Assembly: GCA_021107755.1 (NCBI GenBank)
Contig: JAIOSF010000012.1
Span: forward strand, 1-64,000
DNA: 64,000 nucleotides
Direction: 5' to 3'
From: Arcobacteraceae bacterium
Lineage (GTDB): Bacteria; Campylobacterota; Campylobacteria; Campylobacterales; Arcobacteraceae
The notes under the pieces are model-generated. The model did no database searches, was not told where the DNA came from, and saw nothing but the letters and a program-made list of their open reading frames with translations. Shown here piece by piece: positions 153 through 26,627 of this stretch. Within the stretch, counting starts at the first letter, position 1, and the number at the start of each line of letters is the position of its first letter. Both the position numbers and the translations under genes were made by a program.

Positions 153-488
153 TTATTCTGAAACTTTACAAACAAAACAATTTATTTGATCTTTACAATC
201 TTCACAAGCAGGGGCAATTTCCCCTATGCTATCATAAATATATTTTTTCCATAATTTATCTTGAGGTTTATTTTGTGCTAAAAGGGGAAAGTGTTCTTTC
301 ATAAATCTTCCCATCTCTACTCTACTTTTAAAACCCAAATCTTGATAAAGATGATTTTCCATCAACGAAGTTTGTGCAACTTGGACAGAGATAATATTCT
401 TAGCTCTTTCATTTTTTGCATATTTTTGTAAAAATGATATTACTTTTTCTTCTAGTGTTTTTAATGGTGTTTCATTTTTTATACTCAC
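153..488 (-). CDS. nifQ: Short NifQ-like protein (molybdenum donor for FeMo-co)
   Basis: 111 residues. The C-terminal half reads like NifQ: HLYQDLGFKSR, HFPLLAQN, WKKYIYD, then a cysteine cluster near the end. NifQ proteins are usually longer (about 160-200 residues), so this one lacks much of the N-terminal part. Family NifQ binds a Mo-Fe-S cluster through C-x4-C-x2-C-x5-C. Here I see C-x2-C-x5-C-x2-C (ACEDC...CFVC): the first family cysteine falls on Glu and an extra cysteine lies downstream. It starts with GTG overlapping the TGA of fprA (GTGA), which indicates translational coupling. The role as molybdenum donor to NifE/NifN is inferred from the family. Confidence 0.75.
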   Translation of the reverse strand: MSIKNETPLKTLEEKVISFLQKYAKNERAKNIISVQVAQTSLMENHLYQDLGFKSRVEMGRFMKEHFPLLAQNKPQDKLWKKYIYDSIGEIAPACEDCKDQINCFVCKVSE

Positions 489-1701
489 AGTGTCATCTCC
501 ACCATTTTCCCATTTACTATTTCCCCAAACTCAATTCCAAAATCAAAACAATCCATTAGTTCCTCTTTTGTTGGTATAAGTTTTATTTTCATAGGATCTA
601 GAGGAACTCTAAACTTCAAGTTTTTTAATCTTCCATTCATCATATCAACTGCTTCTCCACTCCATCCATAAGAGCCAAAACAACCACCAAATTTTCCTTT
701 TTTAGTAACATCATACAACTCAATAGATCCCAAACAGGTTTTGGTACATCTCCATTAATTGTTGGGCTACCAATAATAATACCAGTACTTTCTTCTAAAA
801 TTGTAAGCATATTTTGTTCATCAAGAGCAGTTAAATCATAAATATTTGCTATTAAATTATCATTAGATTCAATACCATTATAAATACTTTCTGCCATATT
901 TTTAGTATTTTTATAACTAGTTACATAGAAGATTGAAACAACTTTTTTCCCATGTCGTAAATCATCTTTATTACTCCATTTTAAATATTTATCTATATAT
1001 TTTTGAGGATTATTTCGCATAATTGGACCATGTAGATTACATATCATATCAATTTTACATTTTTCATAGAGTCTTAGGGCATTTAATACATCTGTTTTAA
1101 ATGGTCGCATAATATGGTCATAATAGTATTTAAAGGCATAATCAAAATCACCAACTAAATCATCAAATAATCTATCATCAAAATAGTGACTTCCAAATAC
1201 ATCACCACTAAATAATATCTCATCTTCAACCAAATAACTACTCATAGTTTCAGGCCAATGTAGATTTGGTGTACTTAAAAATTTTAGTGTTTTATTCCCA
1301 ATTTTAAGTTCTTTGTTAGTCCAAACATTTTCTAAGTTCATCTCATCTGTTTTTGCAATAGATTTTAACATAGGTCTAGCCATTGGTGAGATAAATACTT
1401 TTGCATTATTTGTCCGTTTTACAAGTTCTGGTAAAGCACCACTATGATCTGGTTCTAGATGATGCATAACGATATATTTAATATCCTCATATTTACAAAC
1501 AGATTCTAGTTTTTTAAAAAACTCTTCTTGAAATTCATATTTTACAGTGTCAAAAATAACAACACCCTCTGGTGTTTTAAGTAAGTAAGCGTTGTATGTA
1601 GTTCCATTTGCTGTTTTCATAATAATATCAAATGTTCTAATATCGGGATCACTTACCCCAATATAAAAAAGGTCTTTTTTTATCTGTATTGCTTGTTTCA
1701 T
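485..1701 (-). CDS. fprA: Flavodiiron protein FprA (A-type), interrupted by a -1 frameshift
   Basis: An N-terminal beta-lactamase-like diiron domain (residues about 1-250, HLEPDH metal motif, later GDVF and LHGP) is followed by a flavodoxin domain. The first frame runs for 353 codons and stops at 640. The flavodoxin half continues in the -1 frame from about 733 to 485 (GKFGGCFGSYGWSGEAV). The frames must join near codon 333 at a run of six A; the joined protein would be about 405 residues, the normal family length. Flavodiiron proteins reduce O2 or NO to water or N2O, and this one sits in a nif operon, so oxygen protection of nitrogenase is a reasonable inference. One lost A (mutation or sequencing error) or programmed frameshifting could explain the break. 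Confidence 0.85.
697..703 (-). other. Frameshift point / slippery heptamer A AAA AAG in fprA
   Basis: The minus strand reads CTA AAA AAG GAA in the upstream frame, so A-AAA-AAG is phased as a canonical -1 slippery heptamer. After slipping, reading continues as AAA AAA GGA AAA TTT, giving KKGKFGGCFGSYGW, which matches flavodiiron proteins. I see no convincing upstream Shine-Dalgarno stimulator or strong downstream hairpin, so a lost A (A7 to A6) is equally possible. Confidence 0.6.
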
Positions 1702-6960: not shown

Positions 6961-7326
6961 TTATTTTTTTAAAAGTATTCTTTTTAACCAAAGTGGAGCA
7001 CTATCTTGCATCATCTTTTGTAATGATTTTATCACATCTTCTATTCTCTCAGACTCATGAGATGACTTCATTGGATAGATACCACACTTTTGTACCATAT
7101 TGGCAGCTTTGGGTCCTATTTGCGATACATATACGATGTCACTATCCTCTAAACAATTGATTTTATACTCTAATTTATCTATCTCATCATCAAACTTCAA
7201 TGAAGAGTCAACTTCACTAACAAGTTCATAATCGTCTTCAGAAATTTCATAAATATAAAACATCTCACACCAACCAAAATGTTGGTTTACATGAATATTA
7301 TCTTTTGATGCAAATGCTATCTTCAT
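6961..7326 (-). CDS. nifX: NifX-type dinitrogenase iron-molybdenum cofactor-binding protein
   Basis: 121 residues starting MKIAFASKDNIHVNQHFGWCEMFYIYEI, the beginning of the NifX/NifB-C/NafY cofactor-binding fold (HFG with a nearby aromatic). A later IVYVSQIGPKAANMVQKCGIYP segment fits the same fold. Family members hold NifB-co or FeMo-co precursors during transfer to NifEN or apo-dinitrogenase in the cytosol. It lies alone after the defence cassette, with its own sigma-54-type element 34 bases upstream and an AAAAGGATAA ribosome-binding stretch. The symbol nifX is the nearest label; NifY or a generic NifX-like protein is also possible. Confidence 0.85.
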   Translation of the reverse strand: MKIAFASKDNIHVNQHFGWCEMFYIYEISEDDYELVSEVDSSLKFDDEIDKLEYKINCLEDSDIVYVSQIGPKAANMVQKCGIYPMKSSHESERIEDVIKSLQKMMQDSAPLWLKRILLKK

Positions 7327-7378: not shown

Positions 7379-8449
7379 TTATTTACCGTACTCTTTTATA
7401 TGTTTATATAAGTCTTTTGTCATTTTTGATAAAGGATGTTTATTAAATTCTTCTTCTTTGTAGTAATTGCAAAAATGTTTCTGGTATTCATCTTCTGATA
7501 AATCAAATGTATTTTTCAAAAACTTTTTATTTACATCTGGATATTTTTGATGTTTTGTAAACATCTCATTTACATAGTCACTATGTATCTCATTGTAAAG
7601 ATTATCAAGATGTAGTACTTCTGAATTTTTTATAGTATCTGAACATTTTAAATTTATTTTTCTTGTATCTGTATCTATAGAATCAAACTCAAATCTAAAT
7701 CTATCATCATTTTCTTTCATCTCATAAGGACTTATGCAATTTTGTGTATAAGTATCTACATCACTTTTTATTTTATTACAAAATGCACAAGATGGTAAAA
7801 GATTTGAGATACTTAGAGATAAAAAAGGGTAGATTGATTTTGGAAAAAAATGCTCTATATCAGGAGATTGATTATCATTTGCCCCATGTAGCTTCGTTAT
7901 TTCATCTTTATGTATAGGATTTATAAAATTTCTATTACAATAGGGACAAACATTCACATCATTAAAAAGTTCAAAAAATGGTTTTTTAAAGTCACTTTTT
8001 ACATTACTTAAATATTTAGAATATAAAGTTTCAAATTTTTTGTGATATTTTTTATAATCACTCGATCTTAACTTTTTATTTTCTTGATAAATTAATAAAG
8101 AATTAGAATCTACTTTATCTTTTAAATAATTTTTCATAGTACCAAAATCTGCTGATAAAATTAAATAGATATCATCTCTTAAAGTTCTAAGTTCAGCTTT
8201 AAAATTATCATCTATCTTACTTCTTAGTAAATTTGTTATCTCTTTACAAATAAGTTTTTTAAACTTAAATATTGAAATAGAGTCTGCATTAGTATAACTT
8301 TCAAAAACACTTAAATCGTTGTAATCTCTAACTGAACTACTTTCAATATCTTCAAGTTTTTCAATCACTTCTTTTTTTAAATTATTAATACTAGAGTTAT
8401 TTAAAGAGGCAAATATTCGTTTTTCAGCACTATTATCAACTCTAATCAT
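7379..8449 (-). CDS. HNH endonuclease, Septu PtuB-like
   Basis: 356 residues from ATG 8449; the longer frame opens with a TTG one codon earlier. The C-terminal half holds an HNH nuclease core: CPYCNRNF, then DIEHFFPKSIYP, then NLLPSCAFCNKIKSD, with two CxxC pairs for structural zinc and the catalytic EH. The N-terminal half is helical and not recognised. The start lies inside the end of the ATPase gene (8-base overlap), so the two are coupled. An ATPase plus HNH nuclease pair is the layout of Septu (PtuA/PtuB) and of some retron effectors; in those systems the nuclease attacks nucleic acid on phage infection. Assignment as PtuB-like is by layout and HNH motif. Confidence 0.8.
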   Translation of the reverse strand: MIRVDNSAEKRIFASLNNSSINNLKKEVIEKLEDIESSSVRDYNDLSVFESYTNADSISIFKFKKLICKEITNLLRSKIDDNFKAELRTLRDDIYLILSADFGTMKNYLKDKVDSNSLLIYQENKKLRSSDYKKYHKKFETLYSKYLSNVKSDFKKPFFELFNDVNVCPYCNRNFINPIHKDEITKLHGANDNQSPDIEHFFPKSIYPFLSLSISNLLPSCAFCNKIKSDVDTYTQNCISPYEMKENDDRFRFEFDSIDTDTRKINLKCSDTIKNSEVLHLDNLYNEIHSDYVNEMFTKHQKYPDVNKKFLKNTFDLSEDEYQKHFCNYYKEEEFNKHPLSKMTKDLYKHIKEYGK

Positions 8450-11108
8450 CAATATTCTCTAAATATAATTTTTTTAATATCTCATTTTGTTCTGACTGAG
8501 AAAAGCTTTTAAGTGTTTTCATAATTTCGCTATTTTCTTTATCTCTTAGTTCTTTAACTATCTTATCAATATTTTTATCTTCATCAAACAGGTATTTTAT
8601 ATCATTTAAAAGTTTATTTCTAAGCATAGGCTCACCAATGCGTTGAATTGTTCGTTTTATTTTATCTTGAAGTGTTTTATCGTTTAATATTTGAGTTATA
8701 TTTTGTAATATAAATTTTTCATCGATTTTTTTATCAAAAAAATCATTAAAAGAGTTTATAAATTTTTCTTTTATTTCTCTCTTTTTTTTTTCATCTTTTA
8801 ACTCTTTGATAATTTTATATAGATTTACTATATCTATAACTTGATTTATCTTTTTTTCTGCAAACTCACCCATAAAACTTTTCATAAAAAAACTATCATT
8901 ATAAATATCATATATATTTGCACCAAAGGTACTTTTTTTATTTTCCTCACTTTGAGATACATCTGTACTATATCCATCTTCATTTTTTAGAAATACAACT
9001 CTATCATCTGTAATATCTGAAAGAATCATAGGTGAGTGAGTAGCATAAAGTATATAAAATTTATTGTCACTATAATTATTTAGAAACTCTATCAAATCAT
9101 TTACAAATTTTCTTTGCCATTCAAGATGAAGTTTTAAATCTGCTTCATCTAAAAGGATTAAAATATTTTGATCATTTTTTTCTTCTTTTATTCTTTTTAT
9201 TGCATCGTTTATTCTTGAAAACAATACTAACTTTGCTTTTTCTCCAGATGAAAAATGAGGTTCTATTTCATAAGTAAATGGTTTTATTTTATCCTTTATA
9301 ATAAATTCATAGAATTTAAAGAAATTATCATTTACTTCAAAAATACTATTTTGATGTTTAACATTTACTCCAAATCCATCTAATATATTTTGCTCTAGAT
9401 TATTAAATAAATTAAAAAAACTTTCAATTCGGAATGTCAAATTACCAATATCTTTATTCTCTTCAATATCAAAATTAATGTATTTACCTATATCATTACA
9501 CACACTTATTAACATATTTAAAGTTCCTAATACTCTTGATATTAAAAAATCTTCTGATGATATTTTCAAAAGTTTACGAAACTGTAAAATAAATAATTGT
9601 TGTATAAAGGCTACATTATGAGGTTCTGAATTTATCATAATATTTTTAATATTGTTATATAAAAATGTTTTTAGACTTTCATCTTCAATAATCTTTTCAT
9701 TTTTGAAAAAATTACGAACATCAAGATATTTTAATTTGATTGCCTCATATATAAATTGATCATATAATTTATTATCAATTACTTCAAAATTGAGTTTATC
9801 CACCCTTTCATTTTTTAGTATAAATATTTTTAAACAAATTTCAATATTATTCTTAAACTGTTTTTCTAGAATCTTTTTATCTTGCATATAGTCAATTATC
9901 GCTTTTGAAACTTCATTCACAATTCTTTTATAAATAATATTCATGACTTTTAAATAAACATTTTCTTCATTTTCTCTAAATAGTTCTTGATATTGATTCA
10001 GTAAGTCAGTCTTCCTCGATAAAAAATTTCTAAATTCTTGTAGTATTAAATCATATAATTCGCTAAATATAGAAGTTAATTCAAATTCCAAATGGGACGT
10101 AATCATATCGATAGGTAAATAGCGATTATCATAAAAAATGTCTTCATAAAAATTTCTTTCTATTAATTTCATCAGTTCATGATATCTTTGAATTTTTTTG
10201 ATTTCCACATAAAATGCTTCAAATATTTCATTATATTGTTCCAATCCATTTTGATTAGTGACTTTCTCAAAATAATTATCAAGAATTTTTTTATTTTGTA
10301 AAAGTAAGTAAAATATCCTTTGTTCATATCTTAAAGAATCATATAACACTTCTTTTTTAAAAGATTGAGGGAAATTTTTCAATATTTTAAAAATAAAATT
10401 TCTGTTTTCTTTTTCTTCAGGTTTATTATTTAGAATATTAAATATTGATTCCATTAACTGATTATTATACTTTGTAAATAATTTTTCTTCTATTTCATCA
10501 AAATATGTTTTTGAAGAGTAGACTTTAATTTTAGTAATCTCTTTTATACCCAAAATCTCTTTATTTGGTAAATTGAAATATTTATGAATATCATCATTTT
10601 CAATTAATGATAATCTATTATTTAGAGGTAAATCATCATAACTATTTATTAATGCTCTATTTGAAATATTATAATCAGATTTTATATCATTTTCAGATGT
10701 ATCAAGAATTGAACTATAGTAGATATATTCAAAGTTGTCATCAACTTTTTTTACATCTTTATCAACTCCATCAATATTAATATTAACACTTTTATGAACA
10801 TGATTTATAAAATAAAATTGCTCATCATTTTCATAAACTATAATTGAGTAATTGTTACTTTTATCCCTAATAGAATTAATTAAAACACTTTTTCCAGTAC
10901 CATTTTCACCTATAATAACTCCAATATCACAGTTTTTTAAGTAAAAATCATCTTGATAGCTTTTCTTAGTAGTCAAGGTAATATCAAACTGATGTTTTTG
11001 ATTTTGAACTTTAATATCTTCAACATTATATTTCTTACTAAAACTAATCAACGTACCTTTTTTTAAAGTGGCTTTATTCTCATAAAAATATATAAATAAC
11101 AGTCTCAA
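8442..11108 (-). CDS. Large AAA/ABC-type ATPase, Septu PtuA-like or SMC-like
   Basis: 888 residues. Walker A GENGTGKS at 67-74, an ABC signature-like SSGEKAKL near 620, Walker B LILLDEAD near 650 and the switch histidine ATHSPM near 690, so the nucleotide-binding domain is split by roughly 500 residues of helical, Lys/Glu-rich insertion. The C-terminal 150 residues are also helical and charged. This split layout is that of RecF/SMC/OLD and PtuA-type defence ATPases, though typical PtuA proteins are shorter. It starts with TTG overlapping the TGA of the HEPN-like gene by four bases and overlaps the HNH gene, so all three should be translated together. No TOPRIM nuclease motif is seen, which argues against OLD/Gabija or PARIS. 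Confidence 0.85.
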   Translation of the reverse strand: MRLLFIYFYENKATLKKGTLISFSKKYNVEDIKVQNQKHQFDITLTTKKSYQDDFYLKNCDIGVIIGENGTGKSVLINSIRDKSNNYSIIVYENDEQFYFINHVHKSVNINIDGVDKDVKKVDDNFEYIYYSSILDTSENDIKSDYNISNRALINSYDDLPLNNRLSLIENDDIHKYFNLPNKEILGIKEITKIKVYSSKTYFDEIEEKLFTKYNNQLMESIFNILNNKPEEKENRNFIFKILKNFPQSFKKEVLYDSLRYEQRIFYLLLQNKKILDNYFEKVTNQNGLEQYNEIFEAFYVEIKKIQRYHELMKLIERNFYEDIFYDNRYLPIDMITSHLEFELTSIFSELYDLILQEFRNFLSRKTDLLNQYQELFRENEENVYLKVMNIIYKRIVNEVSKAIIDYMQDKKILEKQFKNNIEICLKIFILKNERVDKLNFEVIDNKLYDQFIYEAIKLKYLDVRNFFKNEKIIEDESLKTFLYNNIKNIMINSEPHNVAFIQQLFILQFRKLLKISSEDFLISRVLGTLNMLISVCNDIGKYINFDIEENKDIGNLTFRIESFFNLFNNLEQNILDGFGVNVKHQNSIFEVNDNFFKFYEFIIKDKIKPFTYEIEPHFSSGEKAKLVLFSRINDAIKRIKEEKNDQNILILLDEADLKLHLEWQRKFVNDLIEFLNNYSDNKFYILYATHSPMILSDITDDRVVFLKNEDGYSTDVSQSEENKKSTFGANIYDIYNDSFFMKSFMGEFAEKKINQVIDIVNLYKIIKELKDEKKKREIKEKFINSFNDFFDKKIDEKFILQNITQILNDKTLQDKIKRTIQRIGEPMLRNKLLNDIKYLFDEDKNIDKIVKELRDKENSEIMKTLKSFSQSEQNEILKKLYLENIDD

Positions 11109-11503
11109 AATATTTTCTTAAAATATATATTTAAATTATTTAAAATAGGATAATATCTGTTAATTATAAGCTCTTGAAGTTCTTCAAGGATTTTATCATC
11201 ATAAATATCCAAAGCTAAATTTCTTTTTTCTAATGCTTCAAGCCAAAGCGTTCCATCACTTATAAGTCCGTGTGTAAATGCAGTTTTGATAGTTTCTCTT
11301 GGGCTTTTTACATCATAACCCTCAGACTCAAGATAATCTTTTATCACTTTCCAAGCTAACTCAAAACTTACTTCAAAAAACTGAATTAATCCAGCTTTTT
11401 CTATGTCATTTAATGATTCTTTTTCAACTGTTAGATTTAGATGATTAAGTGATTTTTGATAGTTTGAAAATCTTTGTCTACATCGTGTAAGATTATCTTT
11501 CAT
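11105..11503 (-). CDS. HI0074-family (HEPN-like) nucleotidyltransferase-partner protein
   Basis: 132 residues that follow the HI0074 family along their length: FFEVSFELAWKVIKDYLESEGYDVKSPRETIKTAF, HGLI, LWLEALEKRN...YDD. This family is HEPN-fold and normally pairs with a small MNT nucleotidyltransferase; no such gene is adjacent here. The usual HEPN RNase motif of the family, RN-x3-H-x-Y, reads RNLALDIYD, so the catalytic His is Asp and RNase activity is doubtful. It is followed by the ATPase with a four-base overlap (TTGA), so it is more likely a structural or regulatory partner of that ATPase than a classical antitoxin or toxin. Confidence 0.8.
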   Translation of the reverse strand: MKDNLTRCRQRFSNYQKSLNHLNLTVEKESLNDIEKAGLIQFFEVSFELAWKVIKDYLESEGYDVKSPRETIKTAFTHGLISDGTLWLEALEKRNLALDIYDDKILEELQELIINRYYPILNNLNIYFKKIF

Positions 11504-11569
11504 AAGAACCCCTAGCTATAAATTGCATTGATTTATTATATCTATATTCATCTTTTATTATACAAAACA

Positions 11570-11938
11570 CTAAGAAGCTATAAACTCCATAGTAGCCTTT
11601 TGTATGAGTGCTGATCTGCTCAGGTTATGATCTTTTGCATATTTGTCTGCTATATCTAAAAAGTTTGCTTGTACGGATATGTTTATCCTTTTTGTTTCAT
11701 TTCCGAAATCTCTTATGATACCTTCTAAAGATATATCTTCATCTAAACTTTCAAAATGTATCCCCATACCATTTGCAATAAGTCTGTAATCTTTTAGCTC
11801 TTCAATAGAAGCATTTTTTAATTTTGGAGTATAAGAGTAAGGGACAGTTAAAACTCTCTTTGTATTGAGTTCTATATAGAGTTTATCATCACCAAATCCA
11901 ACAGACTCAATAAGTACTTTATCTTTTAAAGTATTCAT
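11570..11938 (-). CDS. DUF2442 protein with C-terminal ribbon-helix-helix (probable antitoxin)
   Basis: I place the start at 11938 because AAGGAG lies six bases before that ATG; a start 24 bases upstream is open but lacks a site. Residues 1-75 or so match DUF2442 (YIELNTKRVLTVPY, LKNASIEELKDYRL, GMGIHFESLDEDISLEGI). The C-terminal 38 residues (INISVQANFLDIADKYAKDHNLSRSALIQKA) look like a CopG/HicB-type ribbon-helix-helix DNA-binding segment. DUF2442 genes commonly sit beside DUF4160 genes as a putative toxin-antitoxin pair. Its start region overlaps the end of the DUF4160 gene. I infer that it is the antitoxin and binds the operator at 12167-12186. Confidence 0.75.
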   Translation of the reverse strand: MNTLKDKVLIESVGFGDDKLYIELNTKRVLTVPYSYTPKLKNASIEELKDYRLIANGMGIHFESLDEDISLEGIIRDFGNETKRINISVQANFLDIADKYAKDHNLSRSALIQKATMEFIAS

Positions 11939-12152
11939 CCCATGCTCCTTGTAGTATCTCATTGTTTTGTTTTACTAACTCTACTAATTTTTTTATATCT
12001 TTTGAGTTTAGATTGTAACTATCTGTTATTTTTAGTGTATCGAGTTCTATCCTTACATAAGCATCTGCTTTTTCTATATGTATATGTTTAGGATCGTGTT
12101 CATTACTAAAAAAGAAAAATCTAAACCCATCTATTTTTAAAATAGTAGGCAT
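11919..12152 (-). CDS. DUF4160 protein (probable toxin partner)
   Basis: 77 residues, full length for DUF4160: MPTILKIDGFRFFFFSNEHDPKHIHIEKADAYVRIEL, with the conserved HxPxHIHV-like stretch (HDPKHIHIEK). DUF4160 proteins are usually found next to DUF2442, as here, and are regarded as candidate toxins; the activity is not known to me. It has a strong promoter of its own with an overlapping inverted repeat, and overlaps the DUF2442 gene downstream. The gene order and the operator suggest an autoregulated module. Confidence 0.78.
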   Translation of the reverse strand: MPTILKIDGFRFFFFSNEHDPKHIHIEKADAYVRIELDTLKITDSYNLNSKDIKKLVELVKQNNEILQGAWDEYFKR

Positions 12153-12166
12153 TTTAAAACTTCTTT

Positions 12167-12203
12167 ATTGTGTAATTATACACAATCATTCTTATTGTGT
12201 CAA
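12167..12203 (-). promoter_or_regulatory. Promoter and inverted-repeat operator of the DUF4160/DUF2442 module
   Basis: On the minus strand TTGACA (12203-12198), 17 bases, then TATAAT (12180-12175): a perfect sigma-70 promoter. ATTGTGTA (12167-12174) and its exact inverse TACACAAT (12179-12186) flank the -10 box, and a third copy of ATTGTGT lies at 12194-12200 beside the -35. A repressor bound here would block the promoter, which fits toxin-antitoxin autoregulation. Confidence 0.75.
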
Positions 12204-12313: not shown

Positions 12314-13285
12314 TTAGATGATATATATCTGTATATTCTCATCATTTATTTGAGACAATGTATTTTTAATCATATCATAAGTACTTGTTGCACCTAAACT
12401 ACATCCAGCACAGGCACCTTGGTATGCAAGTCTTATTTGGATATCTGGTTCATTGATATAATCTAAAATCATCATATCTCCACCATCTTTCACTAAAATA
12501 GGTCGTATAAAACGATCAAGTGCATCGGCTATGATATCGTATTGTTCTTCATAAGACTTTGCTCTAAATACTTTGTTTGGTTCACATGCTGTATTTGGTT
12601 TTCTATCAACTCCACCCATTTGAGCCACTGCCATAGGATGTCCTGATAGTGCTGCATTTAACATAGCATTAAATCCTTCTCTTACTCTATCCTCATTTGT
12701 TCTATCTTTTAAAAGAAGTAAACCTAATCTAAAATTTGCACCTTGGTGGTTTTTCTTCACAGCAATTCTAAAATAATCTATCGCTTTATCTTCATCTTCC
12801 TCTACACCAATTTTTGATTGGTACATAAGTGCTAAATTATAAGTTGCTGAATCATTTTCATACTCGGCACCTTTTTCAAACCACTCTCTGGCTTTGTCAA
12901 AATCCTTTTCAACACCCTCACCTTTTAAATACATCAAACCAATATTTGCCATAGCTTGATCATTTTTTAGTTCTGCCTCTTTTGTCCAAATGCTTAATGC
13001 AGTATCAAAATCTTTTGCTCTGTATGCTTTTAATGCTTCTCTATGTTCCATAAATCTAATTCCTTCTTTTGGATTTGGGATCTCTTTCCCTAGTTCTAAT
13101 TGTTTTTTTATATGTTTTTCTAAATACTCAGTAGCTATCTCTATAGCTTCATAATAATCTTCACTAGAACCTTTTATATCAAAGTCAGTATATACTGCTA
13201 AATAAGCATCTCCAACTTCGTGTTCACCAGGATACACCTCAATTGGATAATCCAAATTCATATAATATTCTAAATTCTTTTCCAT
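12314..13285 (-). CDS. Three-part fusion: HicB-like domain, Sel1 repeats, NifU C-terminal domain
   Basis: 323 residues. Residues 1-75 resemble a HicB-type fold (YPIEVYPGE...GDAYLAVYTDF...AIEIATEYLEKHI). Residues about 85-230 hold Sel1-type TPR-like repeats (ALKAYRAKDFDTALSIWTKEA, ANIGLMYLKGEGVEKDFDKAREWFEKGAE, YNLALMYQSKIGVEEDEDKAIDYF, ANFRLGLLLL). Residues about 245-323 form a NifU C-terminal (Nfu) domain, IRPILVKDGGDM...GACAGCSLGA, whose CxxC can carry a [4Fe-4S] cluster. It directly follows cowN (TAGATG) in a nif operon, so a role in Fe-S delivery or nitrogenase protection is likely; the exact job is unknown. The domain combination is unusual. Confidence 0.8.
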   Translation of the reverse strand: MEKNLEYYMNLDYPIEVYPGEHEVGDAYLAVYTDFDIKGSSEDYYEAIEIATEYLEKHIKKQLELGKEIPNPKEGIRFMEHREALKAYRAKDFDTALSIWTKEAELKNDQAMANIGLMYLKGEGVEKDFDKAREWFEKGAEYENDSATYNLALMYQSKIGVEEDEDKAIDYFRIAVKKNHQGANFRLGLLLLKDRTNEDRVREGFNAMLNAALSGHPMAVAQMGGVDRKPNTACEPNKVFRAKSYEEQYDIIADALDRFIRPILVKDGGDMMILDYINEPDIQIRLAYQGACAGCSLGATSTYDMIKNTLSQINDENIQIYII

Positions 13286-13585
13286 CTAACAACACTCTAA
13301 TTCAATTTGATCAAGTAATTCTGTCCCTTTTTCAAAATTAAACTCTTCGAACAGATCATGAATATAAAATACATTTGCACAAATCAGATATAAAGTATCT
13401 TTCTCTTCCCCTTTACTCCAAACCTCTCGGTAGTTTGTAGGAATTTTATCCATAAAATTAACCCATAATTGATTTTTCGATTCTAGTTTTAATTCAAAAA
13501 GTTCATTCATCGCATCAAGTACCAATGCTGCATTTTCATAGCAGTCAATATTGTTAAAGGTTACATATCTATCTTTTACTTCCAT
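13286..13585 (-). CDS. cowN: CowN-like protein, sustains N2 fixation in the presence of CO
   Basis: 99 residues matching the pattern of CowN along its length: VKDRYVTFNNIDCYENAALV, a central LWVNFMDKI, DTLYLICANVFYIHDLFEEFNFEKG, and the ending ELLDQIELECC. CowN is known from Rhodospirillum rubrum and Gluconacetobacter as a small protein that protects nitrogenase from CO inhibition. It lies between a nifX-like gene (3-base gap) and the NifU-domain fusion (stop and start adjacent), all behind one sigma-54-type element, so it should be made with nitrogenase. The match is from recalled family features, not a search. Confidence 0.8.
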   Translation of the reverse strand: MEVKDRYVTFNNIDCYENAALVLDAMNELFELKLESKNQLWVNFMDKIPTNYREVWSKGEEKDTLYLICANVFYIHDLFEEFNFEKGTELLDQIELECC

Positions 13586-13588
13586 AGT

Positions 13589-13981
13589 CTATTTACTATC
13601 CTCGCACCCACAACTACAAGTTTCACCCTCACCTGGATTTAAGAGTTTTTTATAGTTTTCACCTGTTAACTTTACTAGTTTATTATTGTTTAGCTCTGTA
13701 AATATCTCTTCAATTGTATATTCATTATAATCAGCTGTATACACTTCCAGACCATTTTTACAAAATGATTTGTAAACACCTTCACCCATATAGTAAAATA
13801 TAGTTGAATTTACCCCTTGTGTTTTTAAAAAATCACCACTTTTAGGACCTTCACCTTGTACCTCATTTGAGATAACCTTATAATCTCCTGTTTTAGTATC
13901 AAGTAGTGCAAAATATGGCACTCTTCCATAAAGTTTTGAGATTTTTGTTGATTCTTTTGTATCGATTGGAATTGCTAGCAT
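13589..13981 (-). CDS. NifX/NifB-C-like cofactor-binding protein with cysteine-rich tail
   Basis: 130 residues. MLAIPIDTKESTKISKLYGRVPYFALLDTKTG is the start of a dinitrogenase iron-molybdenum cofactor-biosynthesis (NifX/NafY/NifB-C) fold, and GVNSTIFYYMGEGVYKSFCKNGLEVYTA completes it. The protein ends GETCSCGCEDSK, a CxCxC cluster that may bind metal. It is the first gene of the operon with cowN and the NifU-domain fusion, preceded by AAGGA and a sigma-54-type element. A cytosolic role in carrying Fe-S or FeMo-co precursors is likely. It is distinct from the nifX at 6961-7326. Confidence 0.82.
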   Translation of the reverse strand: MLAIPIDTKESTKISKLYGRVPYFALLDTKTGDYKVISNEVQGEGPKSGDFLKTQGVNSTIFYYMGEGVYKSFCKNGLEVYTADYNEYTIEEIFTELNNNKLVKLTGENYKKLLNPGEGETCSCGCEDSK

Positions 13982-14017: not shown

Positions 14018-14033
14018 TGCATAATCTATTCCA
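14018..14033 (-). promoter_or_regulatory. Sigma-54-type promoter element before nifX-like/cowN/NifU-fusion operon
   Basis: Minus strand TGGAATAGATTATGCA has GG-N10-GC. It differs from the nifE element (TGGAATATCTTATGCA) at only two positions. The predicted start near 14007 gives a leader of about 26 bases with AAGGA before the ATG at 13981. Confidence 0.7.
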
Positions 14034-14071: not shown

Positions 14072-17000
14072 TTATATTTGTTTAGTAAGCTCTGAAGCCT
14101 TTTTAAAGTCAAACTTTTTAATATTGTTTTTAATATTCTCAAAAGTTTTTTGTTCCTCTATAGAGAGTTGATATTTTTCTATTTGAATAACTACAGTTTC
14201 AATATTTTTAGGTCTTTTTGTTTGTAGTGTATCTTGAAGTTTATTGAATAACTTCTCTTTTATCTCAATCGTAAGTTCCTTTTTTTCAGTAGAAATTTTT
14301 TGATTTTTATTATTAAAAAACTCTAACTCTTTAATTACTTTATTGAGTTCTTCGTAAAATTCTAAAAACAATACTTCATTATCTTCTATCTCTAATTTTT
14401 CAACTATTTTATGAAGATTTATGGCTCCTATATTTGCACTTAAACCTTTTATTGTATGAAAAGTCCTTATTTTTTCTTCATCATTTAAGTCATTTAATAT
14501 AAGATTACTATAGGTATTGTAAAAATTATTTAATACTTTTATATAAAGTTTTTTATTATCTCCCATATGAAGTAATCCAATATTTGTATCTATATACTGA
14601 AAGTTTGGTATATCTCTCTTTTCATCATAATCCAATTCTAACACACTATTTTCAACATTTAAGTACTTAAATAATGTTGTATATAATTTTTCTACTTCAA
14701 TTGGTTTATTTAAATGTTCTTGCATCCCTATTAATTTTGTTTTTTCAATATCACTCTTCAATGAGTTTGCACTGAGTGCTATAATTGGTATATCTTGATT
14801 CTCTTTTCTTATAAGTTTTGTTGCTTCGTACCCATCCATTATAGGCATTTGGATATCCATTAAGATAAGATCGTATTTATCTTTATCTTGTGTAAACAGA
14901 TCTACAGCTTCTTTTCCATTTGAGGCTATATCAATTTTCATTTCACTATGTTCTAAAAGTCCAATTATTATCTCTTGATTTGTTTTATTATCTTCTACTA
15001 AAAGAATTGTAAAATTTTGTAATTTATGAATATCAATTTCTGAAGGCTCTTGAGTAACTTTGTTATAATAGTTAGTTTTAATATCAATTTTAAACACATC
15101 ACTAAGTACATCATTCAATATTGAGGGATTTATTGGCTTTTGCAAGAATATATCTATCCCCACATCTTTTGCTAAATCAACAATTGAATCTTGTCTAAAG
15201 GCACTTACCATAATAACTGTAGGTGGAGTGGTACTTGCATCACACTCTTGTTTTATAAGCTTTGTAGTTTCAATACCATTCATATTTGGCATATTCCAAT
15301 CCATAAGGATAATATCATAACTATTATTGCATTTATCAATTTTAACTAGTGCCTCTTCACCACAAAAAGCAACATCAACATCCAGCCCAAAATGGGAAAG
15401 TAAATTTTGTAAGATATCATGCCAAGTTGGATTATCATCCACAACTAAAGCTTTTTTATTATGAAATTGTAGATATTCTTTTTGTATACCTTTTGACTCT
15501 TCTAAATTAATCTCAAATATAAAACTACTCCCTTTATCTTTTTTACTTTCAACCCATATCTCTCCATCCATAAGTTCAACAAGTTGCTTTGAGATGGAAA
15601 GACCAAGTCCAGTTCCCCCATACTTTCTTGTGGTACTTCCATCAGCTTGTGAAAATGATTGAAATAATTTACCCTGCTCCTCTTTTGTTAAACCAATTCC
15701 TGTGTCTTTCACTGTGAACTGAAATCTATTATCTGAATTTTTTTCAATAAAAATTCCAATCTCACCCTCTTGTGTAAATTTCACAGCATTTGTTAAAAGA
15801 TTGATAATAATTTGAGACAATCGAACTGGGTCACCTATAAATTGTTTTCCTATGTTAGAACCATAACTTACTATTATCTCTAAATTCTTTTCATGTGCTA
15901 ATAACTCTATAAGATTAATGCTATTATCTATGACCGTAAAAAGATCAAATTCTATAGTTTCTATCTCTAATTTTCCAGCTTCTATTTTAGAGAAATCCAA
16001 AATATCATTGATAATACTCAATAAGTTTTTAGCACTATTATCAATTTTTTGTATATAGTTTTTCTGTTTTTCATTTAAATCTGTTTGTAATACTAAATGA
16101 GACATCCCTATAATTCCATTCATAGGTGTTCGTATCTCATGGGACATATTTGCTAAAAATTCTGATTTAGTTTGTGTTGCAATTTCTGCTTTACTTTTAG
16201 CGATTTCAAGTTCTTTTGTTCTTGATTCTACTGTCTTTTCTAGATTATTATATACCATTGCATTTTCAATTGATATGGTGATTTGACCACTTAAGTATTG
16301 TAAAAACTGTACATTTTCATCTGTAAATACAGCTGGCAAAAGATTATTTTCTAAATACATAATACCTTTTAATTCCCCTTGTAACAATAAAGGAGCACAC
16401 AAAACAGATTTAATATCTCTATTATTACTATCTTTAAAAACTTTGTCTTCATTAAGGTTATCTATAACAATATATTTTTGTGTTCTTAAAACATAATTTA
16501 CTACAGTATGGACTATTCTTTCACACTGCATATAAGCTTTATGGTGCATCACTTCAGTTTTATTATTATCAATAGAACTAACAGCTTCTACAAAAAGCCC
16601 CTCTTTATCTTTTAAGAGTAAGACACCTCGTTGTGCTCCCGCATTTTTTATAACAATTTGCATCAACTCTTTTAATAAATTTGAAACCCTTTTCTCTTTT
16701 GTAATTACTTCAGATGCTTGGAGTAAAGTTTTAATATCTAATTTTATATTATTTATATCTCTTTGAGTATTGTTTGGAGTAACTCCCCACTGTTGAAAGT
16801 TCCTTGATAGTTCATTTTTATAAAGTTTAGCTGGTTTAATCTGTCCCAAGTTTTCATAAATCTGAATTATTAATCTAGTAGCTATTATTTGTAAATTTGT
16901 TTGTAAATATATCTGGGCACTACTATTTGCCTGTTCATAAAAATTTATAGCTTCATTAAAATTATTATTTAACCTACATAATTCCCCTTGTAATATGTAT

Positions 17001-20000
17001 TTTCTTACTATAAAGTTTTCAGAACAATCAGAAGAGTATTTTTTGAATTTCTGAATTGTTTGATATATTACAGTTTTGTATTTAATACGATTTACCAACC
17101 CCTCATCTTTATAAAGCTGTGCTAATGTTAAAGCCTCATAAAAAAGGTGTTCAGTATTATGTAACATCCCTTTTGAAGAACTTGCAAAACTTTTTCCTAA
17201 ATTTGATACTTTAAAAGCCTCTTGATACTCTTGATGTATATATAATGTGATAAGTTTATTTATAAAATAATAATGTGCAAAATGTTTTGAATTGTATTTT
17301 TCTAAACTTTGTACATAATCTGTTTCATTAAAATTTTTACTATCAAAATAAAGTGGAGATAAAGTTTTTTCTTGTAGATTCAATATAGCTTGCTTTACAC
17401 TTTGTATTGCACCCCATTGCTCCTCTAAACCTATATTTTTAAGAACTACCCTAAACTCTTCTATTTTCTCTAAAATAGTCTCAAAATCAACCCCACGCAT
17501 AAACATACTTTGTACAATCCCAGCTGCTGCACAACTAGTATGAAACCAATCACCTATTGCCAAACCATCTTTGTAAGCTTGGTACCATATATCTTCTGTA
17601 TATTGTGATGACTGTTTCCACGATGTTGCAAAATATCCACAAACAAACTTCACCTCAGCATGTTGTATTGTATTGTTAAATTTTTTCAACATATCTGTTG
17701 AAAGACTACAATACTCAAAACCTAATGTATGGTTTCCTAAAATTCCACCTTGAAATATCACACCAAAAACTGTAAAAGCTATAACAGATTCTTTTGTCAA
17801 TCCTTTTTCCAAACAAAGCTCTACTATTTTTAAAGCATTTGCCACACAAAGTTCTGGTTTAATTTGATATGCAGCTTGTAAAGTATTTGCTGCTATTTTT
17901 ATTAAAAGTTTAAACTCCTCATCAAAAGACTCTTCTATATTGATGAGCTCAGCTATTTTTTTATTTCGTAATTTAAATTTTACCCTTGCAAAGTCAAGTA
18001 TAAATAAAGGAGGAATAAAACCTTTTGGCATATTAAAACCAAAAAGAGCAGTAGCAACTCTTCCCACTTCATATGCTTTTTTAAAATCTGAAATATCAGA
18101 ATATAACTTAATAAGAAGTTCATATATTAAAGCTTGCGTCTTAATATCTTCACTTAATCCCAACGCTATTTCATAATATTTAATCGCTTCTTGGCTATTG
18201 TGGCAAAGATGCTCACACTCTCCTCTTTCTTTAAGTATAAAAATATCTTTTTTTGTATAAGTTTCTTGCTTTATTAAATCCATTGCTTGTTTTATATACT
18301 CTAAAGCATTTATAAAATCTCCACTTTTTTTTGAATGTAAAGAGGCTCTAGTATTAAGTTCAATTAATACCCCTAAATCATCTAAAAATTCAACTCCCAT
18401 ATTAAGATGATTTGTACAGTTTATAAGTTTTTTACCTACAATATCTGTTTTGTATAAATAACTTCCAATCTCAAAATGTATCTTTTTTAAAGTATCTTTT
18501 TCAATACTTGAATAAACAATTTGCTGTAACTTATCATGTGAGAAACGATAAGTTATATTTTGTTTATCATTTTTTAAAACTATCCATTCATCTTTTAAAA
18601 CTTTATCAATAACATAATCAAAAGAGCTATCATCATTATAAATTTTTTGTAATAACTCACTAGAAAAAACATTTCCTATTGAGGATGCAATATTAAGTAG
18701 TTTTTGTACATTTATATCAAGTTGTCCAATTCGTTTACTTAATACTTCAAAAACATTATCACTAATTGGAAAATTTTTTAATTTTTCTAAATCACAATAC
18801 CATTGTAAACTTTCTGGGTCAAACCATAGTACTTGATCCTCTTGCAGTTGTTTTATATACTGTTTTACAAAAAAAGAATTTCCTTCAGTTTTATTATATA
18901 TAATTTCACAAACTTCAGATGCTTGTTCTAAGTGCATTGCATCAACAAGCAAACTTTGTATATCTTTTTTAGTTAAGGAATCTATATTAAACTCTCGAAT
19001 CTCAACATCAAAAGAATCAAGTTTTTTTATCATCTGTTTTACAATATGGTTTTCATCAACCTCTTCCTCTCTATAGGTTACAAAAACAAATATATTTTTT
19101 AAATTTAAAAGAATATTTTCTAACCACTTTATAGTAATATCATCTGCCCATTGTAAATCATCAATATAGATACATAAGGGCTTTTGGGTAGTAAAAAAAA
19201 GCTTCATAAAATTCACAAGTAAATTATCAAATCTTACTTTGATATCAGATGGATTAATCTCAATTATATTTTCTTGTTTTCCAATAATAAGTTCTATTTC
19301 TGGAATTACATCAATTAATATTTGAGCATCATTACCTAAAATATTTTGTAATTTATACTTATAAGCCTCAATTGATTTTTCATCTTTTATTATAATCTGT
19401 TTTGTTAAATCTCTCAATGCCCCATACAATATCTCATAAGGTGCATTTTGTTTATATCTTTCTAGTTTTAACTCTAAAATATAACTAAATTTCTCTTTGT
19501 GTGATTTTAATACTTTATTTACTAAAGATGATTTTCCAACACCTGAGTTACCATATAAACTTACTAATACATTTTGATATTGTTGTGAATTTATAATATT
19601 ATGTAACTCTTTCTCTTGAAAATCTCTTCCATAAATAAAATCTGTTTGATTTAATCCTAATTGGTGATTTAAAGTATCAATTTTAAATGTTGTAAATAGA
19701 TTGCTTTTTTGATACTCTTTTAAAACTTTATTAAGATCTGCATATACAGAAACTATGTCTTGATATCTTTCACGGCTATCTTTGACTATCATTTTATTTA
19801 TTATTTGAGATAAAACAGCTGGTACTTTTTCACTACTTAAAAAAGGGATTTTTGTAGTTAATAGATCATAGTCTATCTCTTTACTAGCATTTGATTTATT
19901 TTTAAATTCAGAATCGAGTATCTCATAAAAAATGATACCTAAACTATATATATCAACAGAACTATCAATATTACTATTGATTCTATCACTTTGTTCTGGT

Positions 20001-20227
20001 GCTTTATAAATATTATTCTCTATATTATTATTTGCATAATCTATATCCAAAGTTATATTTTGATTTTTATCTATAATTATATTATCTGGTGTTAAATTTC
20101 CAAGTATTTTTTTTTGTTTATGTACAACGAGTAAAGCTTTACATAAATTTATAGATAAAACCAAAAAACTCTCTATATCAAAATTTTTATGTTTTATAAA
20201 ATTAGTTAGTCTAGTATTTAAATTCAA
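14072..20227 (-). CDS. Giant hybrid sensor kinase: pseudokinase, AAA/TPR, GAF, histidine kinase, two receivers, HPt
   Basis: 2051 residues. Residues 1-170 resemble the C-lobe of a Ser/Thr kinase but lack the N-lobe, Gly loop and VAIK Lys, and HRD reads LGNLTPDN and DFG reads DYA, so it is probably a pseudokinase. An AAA_16-type NTPase follows (Walker [10 protein letters not shown] at 226-234; [10 protein letters not shown] near 350), then long TPR-like helices to about 1180, a GAF domain (about 1200-1340), HisKA ([10 protein letters not shown] near 1363), HATPase (to about 1540), two receivers (VVDDN near 1590; LVEDN near 1738) and HPt ([12 protein letters not shown] near 1922). It should be cytosolic. 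It is the last gene of an operon after a cytochrome and a second hybrid kinase. Ligand and output are unknown. Confidence 0.88.
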
Positions 20228-20261
20228 CTCTTTCCCTCTTGCATTATTTCATCATAAATAT

Positions 20262-21644
20262 CTAATAATGACTTCTAAAATATTGGTATTTTTTCCATTT
20301 TAATAAAATATCATCACTTATACTACTATTTGATGCTGCATAATTCATCAATACTGCTTCTAAAAATGTACTATAATCCAATGCAATCACACCCTCTTGT
20401 TTTGATTGGGGTTCATCTCCTGATCTATTTTTAAACCACTCATTCCACTCTTTTGAACCAGGGGTATACATTTCCCATGGTTGCTTATTAAACTCTTTTG
20501 CTGGATAAAAATAAGTGATCATTTTATCATCATTAAGCATAAAACTTGATGTACCATGACAACTTATACATGAGGAACTTCTCAAAGATTTAACCATTTT
20601 CCCATCAACTTCAACATTATACTTCACAGCAATATCAAAAGGTCCTGACATCCGTTTTCCATATCCTAGTGTTACTTTTGTCCAAGCTGGTGCTTTGGGA
20701 TTTATATAAGTTTCCATGAGCTCTTGTATCGGATTTTTTGCAGAATTTACATCTGGATCATTCCCCCACATTGCACCCAAGGGAACCATTCTATCCCAAG
20801 CATTATTACCTTTTGCATCTTTATCATAAACTAAAGTGGTAAATACCCAACCTGTTTGAGGAGAAGCAACTGAATCTTTTATTAAAATATCAAATATACC
20901 AACCCTTATATCTGTTAGCTTTGGTTTTGCATCTTCTATAGTTCCCTTTAGATTAAAAGGTTTTCTATATATTTTCCATTTAGCTGCCCCTTCTAATACA
21001 GGCCATTGCTCTGGAGTTGCTGTCACACCAGCTGATTTCACTATGATTGATCCCTCTGGAAATTGTGCTTCATTATTGGTAACACTAGGGATACATATAT
21101 CTTTACTCTTATCACATTTATTCCATACTTTGTGAAGAGTATAAGCAGCTGTTTGATTGTAGTAAATAGCTGCATGATTTCTTATATCAACAGTAAGTCC
21201 AGAATCTTTATAAACATCTTTTGATATTATTTGCCCCGTATATGTTCCATAGATAGCTTCTCTCCCTTCCCAACCTGTTTTAGAGATCTCTTCTCCAGCC
21301 CAAAGCATACTATACCAACCAGTTTGAGGACTCTCATTCCACTTTTGTGGCTCCATTACAAATGTTTTCATAGTTTTACCTACATATTGCTTTAATGCCA
21401 TAACATATTCATAGCTGTTTTCTTTTGTTAAAGGTTTCCCATTTAAGACTTCTAACCAAGGTGTATTGATAGGTTTGATATACTCCTTTGGATAGTCATA
21501 ATTAAACTTAAAAAAAGTCCCATTATATTCATTCTTTGGTGGGATAAATCCATTATTGATGGCAAATGGGTCAACTTCTTTTGCTTGTAAATTCAAAGCT
21601 GTTATACTTAAAAGTATTCCTAAAAAAACTTGTTTTTGATTCAT
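20262..21644 (-). CDS. Periplasmic monoheme c-type cytochrome-like protein
   Basis: 460 residues with a signal peptide (MNQKQVFLGILLSITALNLQA) and one heme-binding CISCH at about 359-363 (SSSCISCHGTSSF). The rest contains many Trp, Gly and Pro residues and does not fit a small cytochrome fold; I do not recognise the large N-terminal domain beyond its likeness to uncharacterised periplasmic cytochromes. It starts one base after the stop of the upstream hybrid kinase and ends 34 bases before the downstream one, so it is encoded inside a sensor-kinase operon. It could be a redox enzyme whose substrate or product is sensed by the kinases. Confidence 0.75.
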   Translation of the reverse strand: MNQKQVFLGILLSITALNLQAKEVDPFAINNGFIPPKNEYNGTFFKFNYDYPKEYIKPINTPWLEVLNGKPLTKENSYEYVMALKQYVGKTMKTFVMEPQKWNESPQTGWYSMLWAGEEISKTGWEGREAIYGTYTGQIISKDVYKDSGLTVDIRNHAAIYYNQTAAYTLHKVWNKCDKSKDICIPSVTNNEAQFPEGSIIVKSAGVTATPEQWPVLEGAAKWKIYRKPFNLKGTIEDAKPKLTDIRVGIFDILIKDSVASPQTGWVFTTLVYDKDAKGNNAWDRMVPLGAMWGNDPDVNSAKNPIQELMETYINPKAPAWTKVTLGYGKRMSGPFDIAVKYNVEVDGKMVKSLRSSSCISCHGTSSFMLNDDKMITYFYPAKEFNKQPWEMYTPGSKEWNEWFKNRSGDEPQSKQEGVIALDYSTFLEAVLMNYAASNSSISDDILLKWKKYQYFRSHY

Positions 21645-21645
21645 C

Positions 21646-24600: not shown

Positions 24601-25143
24601 TTTTATAACATTAATCTTTGGATAATATTTTTTCAAAAGTTCATCTTCAAAAAAACCTTTGATTACTGCTATAGTTTGTCCATCCATATCTTGTAAAGTA
24701 GTTAATTTTTTATACTCACTATTTTCATTTACAAATAACACATCAGTAGTACTGATATATGCTTTATTACTATATGTCAAAAATTTTAATCGTTCAGGAG
24801 TTTTTGCTATATTTAAAATTACATCTATTTTATTTTCTTTTGCCATAGTTAAAAACTGATCCCAGCTAGGACCCGTAATATATTTTACTTTTAAACCAAC
24901 TTTAGAAGCCAATAGATTCATATAATCTATAGAGAAACCTTGTGGTTTTCCATTAAAAACATAGTTGTATGGTGGCCAGTCGAGCTCATTATGTACTGTA
25001 ATAGTGTTGTGATTTTGAATAAATTCTTTTTCTTGCTGGGTTAAGTTAATTGAACTATCTAAGTTTAAAAATCGATCTTGAAATTTGGATTCATTGGAGA
25101 AACAAGATAGCATAAATAATAATAGTAAAATTGTAACTTTCAT
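21646..25143 (-). CDS. Hybrid histidine kinase with two periplasmic SBP_bac_3 domains (BvgS/EvgS type)
   Basis: 1165 residues. A signal segment, then two solute-binding (family 3, Venus-flytrap) domains at about 40-270 ([25 protein letters not shown]) and about 290-535 ([25 protein letters not shown]), one transmembrane helix at about 540-560, HisKA ([10 protein letters not shown] near 605), HATPase (to about 800), one receiver ([12 protein letters not shown] near 846) and HPt ([12 protein letters not shown] near 1026). It senses a periplasmic small molecule. Its receiver, HPt and tail are very similar to those of the 2051-residue kinase in the same operon, which suggests that they duplicated from a common source. 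No separate response regulator lies next to them. Confidence 0.92.
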
Positions 25144-25274: not shown

Positions 25275-26627
25275 ATGATGGTAAATAAAAAACAAATCAG
25301 AGAACTTTTAAATGAATCAGCATGTTCACACAATGACAAAAAAAAATCAAGCTGTGATAAACCAAAACCAGGTGCTACAAGTGGTGGTTGTGCTTTTGAA
25401 GGAGCTCAAATAGCTCTATTTCCTTATGCAGATGCAGCGCATCTTGTACACGCTCCTGCAACTTGTCAAGGTGCATCTTGGGAAACGAGAGCAACACCTA
25501 CAAGCTGGGAGGGTGAAAACAATGTACCGTTAGGATACTGTACAGATGTCACAACAAATGATGTTATCTTTGGTGGAGATCAAAAACTAGAAGATAGCAT
25601 AAGTTATATTTGCGAAGAAAAAAAACCAACAGCAGTATTTGTCTATGAGACTTGTGTCACTGCTATGATTGGTGATGATATGGATAATGTTGCAAAAAGG
25701 ATGGAAGAAAAATATAAAATCCCAATCGTTGTAGTACACGCTCCTGGCTTTGTAGGGAGTAAAAACTTAGGAAGCCGCCTTGGTGGAGAAGCTGTTTTAC
25801 ATCAACTTATAGGTACAAGAGAACCCCAACAGATACATCCATTTGGTATCAATCTCATTGGTGAATATAATGTAACTGGTGATATGTGGCAATATACTCC
25901 AATACTAGAAAAAATAGGTATAAAAGTAGTTTCAACTTTAGCAGGTGATGGAAGAATAGAAAATATCCAGATGGCTCATAGAGCAAAACTCAATGTAATC
26001 GTATGTGCAAAATCACTCATAACTTTAGTGCGAAAAATGGAAGAACAATATGAGATACCACATATCTCTGTTTCTTTTTATGGGAAAAGAGATACTACTA
26101 ATGCCATCATGTCTATAGTGAATGCCTTTGGAGATAAAACACTTACAAAAAAAGCACTTGAAGTGATAAAAAAAGAGGAAGAAGCTTTAGAGCAAAGACT
26201 TCTTCCTTACAGAAAAATACTAGAAAATAAAAAAGCCATTTTAAATACAGGTGGGAATAAAGCATGGTCTATTGCATCAGCTCTACAAGATATAGGGATA
26301 GAAGTGGTTGCTACAAGTATTAGAAAATGTACTTTAGAAGATATCGAAATAGCAAAAAAATATGTCCCTATTTTAATGAAAGTTCCAGCAAATGAACAAG
26401 CTAAACTCATAGATGAACACGGTGTAGATATACTTCTTGCAGGTGGAAGAAGTTTATATACAGCTATTAAGAAAAAAGTGGCTTTCGTGGATGTAAATCA
26501 AGAGAAAAAGATAAGCTATGGTGCTTATGGTGGCTTAGAAAATCTGGCAATTGATGTATGTGCCGCAGTTTTAAATCCAGTATTTAAAACTGTAGGTGAA
26601 CCAGCTCCGTGGGATGAGAACCGTTAA
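25275..26627 (+). CDS. nifE: Nitrogenase MoFe-cofactor scaffold protein NifE
   Basis: 450 residues. The N-terminal KPKPGATSGGCAFEGAQIAL, followed by HLVHAPATCQG and later VFVYETCVTAMIGDD and GFVGSKNLGSRLGGEA, is the NifE pattern (CKKPxPGxxxGGCAFDGAQ) rather than NifD, NifK or NifN. NifE pairs with NifN as the cytosolic scaffold on which NifB-co matures to FeMo-co. The start is supported by GGAG seven bases upstream; ATG is doubled (MMV). It stands alone on the plus strand, with a sigma-54 element upstream and a hairpin terminator downstream. NifN is not next to it, so it must be elsewhere in the genome. Confidence 0.93.
   Translation: MMVNKKQIRELLNESACSHNDKKKSSCDKPKPGATSGGCAFEGAQIALFPYADAAHLVHAPATCQGASWETRATPTSWEGENNVPLGYCTDVTTNDVIFGGDQKLEDSISYICEEKKPTAVFVYETCVTAMIGDDMDNVAKRMEEKYKIPIVVVHAPGFVGSKNLGSRLGGEAVLHQLIGTREPQQIHPFGINLIGEYNVTGDMWQYTPILEKIGIKVVSTLAGDGRIENIQMAHRAKLNVIVCAKSLITLVRKMEEQYEIPHISVSFYGKRDTTNAIMSIVNAFGDKTLTKKALEVIKKEEEALEQRLLPYRKILENKKAILNTGGNKAWSIASALQDIGIEVVATSIRKCTLEDIEIAKKYVPILMKVPANEQAKLIDEHGVDILLAGGRSLYTAIKKKVAFVDVNQEKKISYGAYGGLENLAIDVCAAVLNPVFKTVGEPAPWDENR

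Follow-up and report, generated by a model that had tools for sequence, protein, structure and literature searches.

What does a protein do in which a cluster-binding Nfu domain is joined to Sel1 repeats and a HicB-like head, and whose gene lies among nitrogen fixation (nif) genes? The question is raised by a gene, here called SN, in a 64,000-nt stretch of DNA from an Arcobacteraceae bacterium (assembly GCA_021107755.1, contig JAIOSF010000012.1, positions 1-64,000, forward strand; hereafter the window). The initial annotation of the window had placed this fusion in a cowN operon behind a sigma-54 element and proposed that it could be a carrier of Fe-S clusters with nitrogenase or NifEN as its docking partner. 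Judged by its domains and by gene order (Table 1), such a carrier is the most likely reading.

Table 1. Features of SN, its operon and neighbouring nif-type genes in the window
Feature	Position	Strand	Basis or remark
SN (HicB-like + Sel1 + Nfu) gene	12314..13285	-	ORF, Pfam, orthologues in 41/298 genomes
HicB-type N-terminal domain, SN residues 1-74	13064..13285	-	Profile and structure comparison
Sel1/TPR-like helical repeats, SN residues 75-223	12617..13063	-	Pfam, PDB sequence search, model, Foldseek
SN linker, N-x2-F signature	12539..12616	-	N237 and F240 invariant, 45/45 aligned rows
Nfu / NifU C-terminal domain, SN residues 250-323	12317..12538	-	PF01106, PDB NFU chains
CxxC cluster-binding motif of SN, C292-A-G-C295	12401..12412	-	Both Cys invariant, 45/45 rows
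cowN	13286..13585	-	Directly upstream of SN; 90.9 bits, cut-off 27
NifX-like (Nitro_FeMo-Co) gene, first of operon	13589..13981	-	40.5 bits, cut-off 26.3
nifX	6961..7326	-	TIGR02663 103.1 bits, cut-off 112; adjoins SN in many relatives
Flavodiiron (FprA-like) gene, next in conserved order	485..1701	-	Frame broken in window
Short NifQ-like gene, conserved order	153..488	-	
nifE-like gene	25275..26627	+	Divergent neighbour of SN operon in many relatives
Sigma-54-like -24/-12 element TGGAATAGATTATGCA	14018..14033	-	52 nt before first operon gene

SN joins Sel1 repeats to an Nfu domain in one reading frame

SN is a single frame of 323 aa that is intact in the window. Both the Sel1 domain (PF08238, 62.2 bits, cut-off 30.7) and the NifU C-terminal domain (PF01106, residues 252-316, 45.6 bits, cut-off 27) score above their Pfam cut-offs, and a PDB sequence search matched residues 83-224 to Sel1 proteins and residues 246-310 to Nfu proteins. 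A full-length AlphaFold model built from 45 aligned family members (mean pLDDT 89.6) has a beta-beta-beta-alpha head, a helical solenoid and an alpha-beta-beta-alpha-beta tail; the Sel1 region is all-helical in this model, and Sel1 structures were found among its Foldseek matches (best E 5e-8). The annotated architecture thus holds up, with one frame and with both the N-terminal third and the Sel1 repeats recovered by profile searches, though the HicB head is weak by sequence and owes its support to structure. No cysteines other than C292 and C295 are conserved across all 45 aligned rows, and the CxxC motif also is kept in four shortened members of the family.

Like the Nfu carriers NfuA, YutI and NFU1, SN has a CxxC Nfu domain over the cut-off with invariant cysteines; unlike NfuA, which has an A-type domain, it has its Nfu domain fused to Sel1 and, in part of the family, to a HicB-type domain, and unlike all three carriers it is encoded within nif operons. 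SN shares a C-terminal Nfu domain with NifU but is without the IscU-like and ferredoxin domains, and NifU proper (TIGR02000) was ruled out as its identity, since the match reached 28.9 bits against a cut-off of 273.3 and covered the Nfu part only. With Sel1-repeat proteins such as LpnE, HcpC, SEL1L and COA7 it has the solenoid in common, as seen by Pfam, the PDB sequence search and the model, whereas no title among the Sel1-repeat PDB matches mentions an Nfu domain.

The head is a HicB-derived fold and is optional

In the window's SN, the HicB family PF15919 stays below its Pfam cut-off (14.0 bits against 27, E 0.056). When a profile of 18 family heads was compared with the PDB, the best match was the HicB structure 5yrz (E 0.012), and HicB proteins made up three of the six matches (E 0.012-0.38). 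The same profile finds stand-alone ORFs of the same order (E 1e-9 to 4e-11); of these, we checked two, which score above the PF15919 cut-off (58.5 and 49.1 bits). A HicA toxin gene (PF07927, 32.5 bits, cut-off 27) lies directly upstream of one, and the other is paired with a RelE-like toxin. At L160 (1011-1711), a HicB_lk antitoxin follows a RelE-like toxin rather than HicA, an apparent mixed toxin-antitoxin pair. An AlphaFold model of SN residues 1-79 (pLDDT 88.5) superposes on the HicB structure 6g1c with a VIA Z of 7.3 and 1.2 A over 60 residues. The best four VIA matches of the head (Z 8.1 to 6.5) are TTHA0281, which we take to be a HicB-family member, followed by three structures titled HicB; by Foldseek the head matches weakly, with a best HicB E of 0.16. 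Because of the PDB profile matches, the stand-alone relatives that pass PF15919 and the VIA superposition, we accept the head as a HicB-derived fold without an antitoxin role.

An SN that is a HicB antitoxin with extra domains, neutralising a HicA toxin, is largely refuted and was rejected. The kinship of its N-terminal fold with toxin-adjacent HicB proteins of the same order is what could be said for it. Unlike those antitoxins, however, SN falls short of the Pfam cut-off, has no adjacent HicA gene and is without the C-terminal ribbon-helix-helix (DNA-binding) half that is present in its stand-alone relatives. HicA was not found anywhere in the window's genome, and it occurs in 3 of 12 genomes with a three-domain SN, each time on a different contig from SN.

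The family alignment and tree (A5) comprise 45 rows, the tree being made on the Sel1+Nfu part. Left out were L067, which has an in-frame stop, L011 (a near copy of L010), L161, the shortened members L147, L149, L153 and L157, and 21 further loci from a contig scan, several from genomes already represented; the copy with the stop (8001-8969 of its locus) is that of Arcobacter sp. BM504. Among 41 genomes with SN, 19 have the HicB domain, 18 have Sel1+Nfu only and four have a form reduced to the Nfu domain, with Sel1 largely or wholly missing (no Sel1 matched in G089 and G180, part of it in G281 and G158); L155, whose called start lies too far upstream, was counted as being without the HicB domain. 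The two-domain form also occurs in a cultured relative, Sulfurospirillum arcachonense (L072). The domain is found in both deep clades of the tree, and its presence changes nine times, with at least six changes forced by well-supported branches. The core of SN is therefore Sel1+Nfu, and a HicB third that has been repeatedly lost or gained is not essential to the core function. The most constant part is the Nfu domain, followed by Sel1.

These counts bear on a second role for the head, in which SN would be a sensor with a labile Nfu cluster and the HicB-like domain would signal Fe-S or O2 status to a nucleic acid (RNA or DNA) or a regulator. We give this reading little credence. It has in its favour that a domain with a labile cluster is joined to a fold belonging to a regulatory family and that dsRNA-binding domains are among the structural matches of the head, but those matches, at a Z of about 6, are at the background level of the VIA aligner, a DNA-binding domain is absent, and 22 of the 41 genomes have SN without the HicB part.

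SN tracks nif genes across the order

We surveyed 298 genomes sampled from the order with a profile of the linker+Nfu part of SN (E <= 1e-24), and 41 of them carry the gene. nifH was over its cut-off in 66 genomes, among them 38 of the 41 with SN (Fisher p 1.5e-26, uncorrected for relatedness). For the other three SN genomes (G156, G167 and G249) the assemblies are incomplete or in fragments, and nif-type genes lie next to SN in them; nif genes are thus shown by all 41, and the link of SN with nif extends well beyond the window. At the threshold used, 28 of the 66 nifH-bearing genomes are without SN, and SN is therefore not indispensable to nitrogenase in this order. All 15 nifH-positive genomes of one genus (g32, family f20) have cowN and none has SN, so nitrogen fixation in that genus, if any, runs without it.

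A separate NifU-type protein, in every case below the TIGR02000 curated cut-off, was found in 39 of the 41 SN genomes. These proteins argue that SN is an additional carrier rather than a scaffold, and that it probably relays clusters rather than assembling them. The genome of the window yielded no such NifU; a 38-residue match to the Nfu part there reaches the end of contig C32 and may belong to a truncated NifU.

nifX is the constant neighbour of SN and cowN an occasional one

In the window, the cowN stop codon is followed directly by the ATG of SN (0 nt between) and the NifX-like gene is 3 nt from cowN. Both neighbours pass their cut-offs, and the translational adjacency that had been noted is borne out. 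The same genome has a second cowN (G000:C24:74952-75251) that, at 100 bits, scores above the window's copy.

We then counted neighbours at 40 loci, leaving out G250, where SN lies on a 3-kb contig. nifX is on the same strand as SN in 37 loci, within 2.5 kb in 34, and overlaps SN by exactly 4 bp in 12; it was not found in the fetched stretch of three (L150, L151 and L152). The proximity of SN to nifX holds in two deep clades. Other genes found on the strand of SN and no more than 2.5 kb from it are a second NifX-like gene (19/40), ferredoxin genes (19/40), fprA (15/40) and a NifQ-like gene (9/40), and nifE often is divergent from the SN operon. A short NifQ form recurs in the operon; at L034 (11304-11633) it has 109 aa and covers positions 62-158 of the NifQ family only (68.4 bits). 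TOBE-domain proteins form a family that includes molybdate-binding proteins, and the gene for one (7457-7906, 35.4 bits) directly follows SN at L146, in the diverged clade, a hint of a molybdenum link.

Just 8 of the 40 loci have cowN within 2.5 kb of SN and in the same orientation. Over 69 nif-bearing genomes, 25 have both genes, 16 SN only, 19 cowN only and 9 neither, and cowN does not predict SN (Fisher p 0.62). The description of SN as a gene of a cowN operon is thus true of the window but does not carry over to the relatives, in which nifX is constant, and the reading of SN as a partner of CowN is weakened.

This distribution also makes it quite improbable that SN works with CowN and the flavodiiron protein to shield nitrogenase from CO or O2 or to repair it, instead of delivering clusters for assembly. 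Such a role would fit the translational adjacency to cowN in the window, the flavodiiron gene at 15 of 40 loci and the direct action of CowN on nitrogenase (PMC8047169, in the text available from it), but SN and cowN co-occur no more than by chance in the nif-bearing genomes and cowN is seldom near SN.

SN could also be a general Fe-S carrier or repair factor, merely co-transcribed with nif and serving many proteins induced during nitrogen fixation; Nfu carriers usually have broad clients. Some genomes keep the Nfu domain with Sel1 shortened or missing, as this reading would allow; the occurrence of nif genes in every SN genome and of nifX nearby in two deep clades nevertheless makes it unlikely.

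The operon is broken up in the window. SN and nifX, which are adjacent in many relatives, here lie 5 kb apart, beyond an insert of 4.8 kb (7379-12152). This block holds a Septu-like ATPase and HNH pair that matches the PADLOC candidate PDC-M62A/B (158.6 and 127.4 bits), as well as genes for an NTase substrate-binding protein, DUF2442 and DUF4160. A perfect TTGACA-17-TATAAT promoter (12/12) stands at 12175-12203, before the DUF4160-DUF2442 pair just downstream of SN, and the C-terminal stretch of the DUF2442 protein weakly matches the C-terminal part of HicB_lk. Farther on, the fprA-like gene is split across two frames near 640-733, which may reflect a true frameshift or a mistake in the assembly. 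The SN operon and nifE are directly divergent in many relatives; in the window, the stretch between them (14072-25143) holds very large genes, of 2051 and 1165 aa, and its genes were read by eye as encoding hybrid signalling kinases.

A sigma-54-like element precedes the operon

The element upstream of the NifX-like gene matches the -24/-12 consensus at 8 of 11 positions, a score that one shuffled sequence in 300 attains. Comparable sites lie 41-54 nt upstream in 10 of the 19 loci tested, the window included; GG-N10-GC is absent in eight loci, and one has only a poor site 208 nt upstream. Over the whole window the consensus gives 23 matches where 22.6 are expected, without excess. With regard to NifA/sigma-54 control, a TGT-N10-ACA match was found in one of the 19 loci, which is not the window's. 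The sigma-54 element of the initial annotation thus beats 299 of 300 shuffles but recurs in only about half of the loci, and for that reason it is plausible, not proven.

SN was found only in Campylobacterota

A phylum-wide sample of 298 genomes gave 28 matches, all of them already in the order sample. One scan of genome_contigs, reaching outside the phylum, gave 51 loci, of which 32 (L057-L088) match through the Nfu part (E <= 7e-67); every one of these whose title names a group belongs to the Campylobacterota/Epsilonproteobacteria, and the titles of L062 and L085 say just 'bacterium'. The remaining 19 loci are partial, mostly the Nfu part alone, and come from Helicobacter, other Campylobacteraceae and one Nitrospina. 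Because the scan used stringent patterns, it would have missed distant relatives. On plasmids, the Sel1+Nfu part matched 379 records, three of which cover 80% of the query; the 30 matches listed of these 379 are Sel1-type, and the linker+Nfu part had no plasmid match. Viral contigs gave pattern matches in 18 stretches, none of which could be confirmed. Within what was searched, SN is found only in Campylobacterota.

We found no description of the Sel1+Nfu(+HicB) fusion or of its nif-bound conservation in the open literature, a body that leaves most subscription journals outside, in agreement with the earlier remark that no characterised protein with this architecture is known. One paper names Sel1 and NifU along with nitrogen fixation, but in separate sections that deal with unrelated points. 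For Campylobacterota nitrogen fixers, nif genes are listed in the available part of PMC12029903 and, for what is probably the L077 organism, in that of PMC4674564, where Sel1 and HicB are unmentioned. Nfu carriers, Sel1 proteins and HicB folds are each known, and SN is a new variant among Nfu carriers.

A candidate nif-dedicated cluster carrier

Nfu proteins form dimers that bridge a [4Fe-4S] cluster through their CxxC motifs. Domain content and gene order together make it reasonably probable that SN is a nif-dedicated Nfu-type [4Fe-4S] carrier that is docked by Sel1 on the NifX/NifEN/NifQ branch of cofactor assembly. One [4Fe-4S] cluster, obtained from NifU, would sit between the CxxC pairs of two SN chains and then be passed to a client on the FeMo-co branch. 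The most likely clients would be NifX/NifEN or NifQ, because their genes travel with SN. The Sel1 solenoid would be the docking arm that gives client specificity, and the HicB-type domain may be an accessory binding or dimerisation module that tunes the choice of partner. A more elaborate version, which we offer only tentatively, is that of a lineage-specific nif protein with a Sel1 platform that holds the NifX, NifEN or NifQ clients while Nfu inserts the [4Fe-4S] cluster, and with an exchangeable HicB-derived head for client selection or sensing; Sel1 would then act as an arm that targets an Fe-S carrier specifically to the assembly of the nitrogenase cofactor.

The individual steps have parallels. 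In the accessible text of PMC11605450, NifU hands a [4Fe-4S] cluster to NifQ in Azotobacter, and NifU-NifQ and NifB-NifX fusions join Fe-S delivery or carrier domains in nitrogenase assembly much as SN would, though the domains joined in SN are Sel1 and Nfu. An Nfu-type role in nitrogen fixation has a precedent in YutI, an Nfu-only protein whose CxxC, as given in part of PMC8038749, is needed for nitrogen fixation in Paenibacillus. NafU was dropped as an Nfu-like precedent, being an inner-membrane protein of another kind according to the available part of PMC8907163.

The LRV Fe-S repeat protein of Azotobacter nif regions reportedly also joins a repeat protein to an Fe-S site near nif, though our search of the open literature turned up no paper on it; the repeat and cluster domain of SN are, by contrast, unrelated to it. 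Little is understood of how carriers select their clients when the nitrogenase cofactor is assembled. A carrier that brings its own docking repeat, as SN would, and that is conserved together with nifX in a clade of nitrogen fixers from sediments, vents and the sea offers a testable handle on this, as well as a candidate component for transferring nitrogenase to other hosts. In its head, a toxin-antitoxin fold has been reused outside toxin-antitoxin systems.
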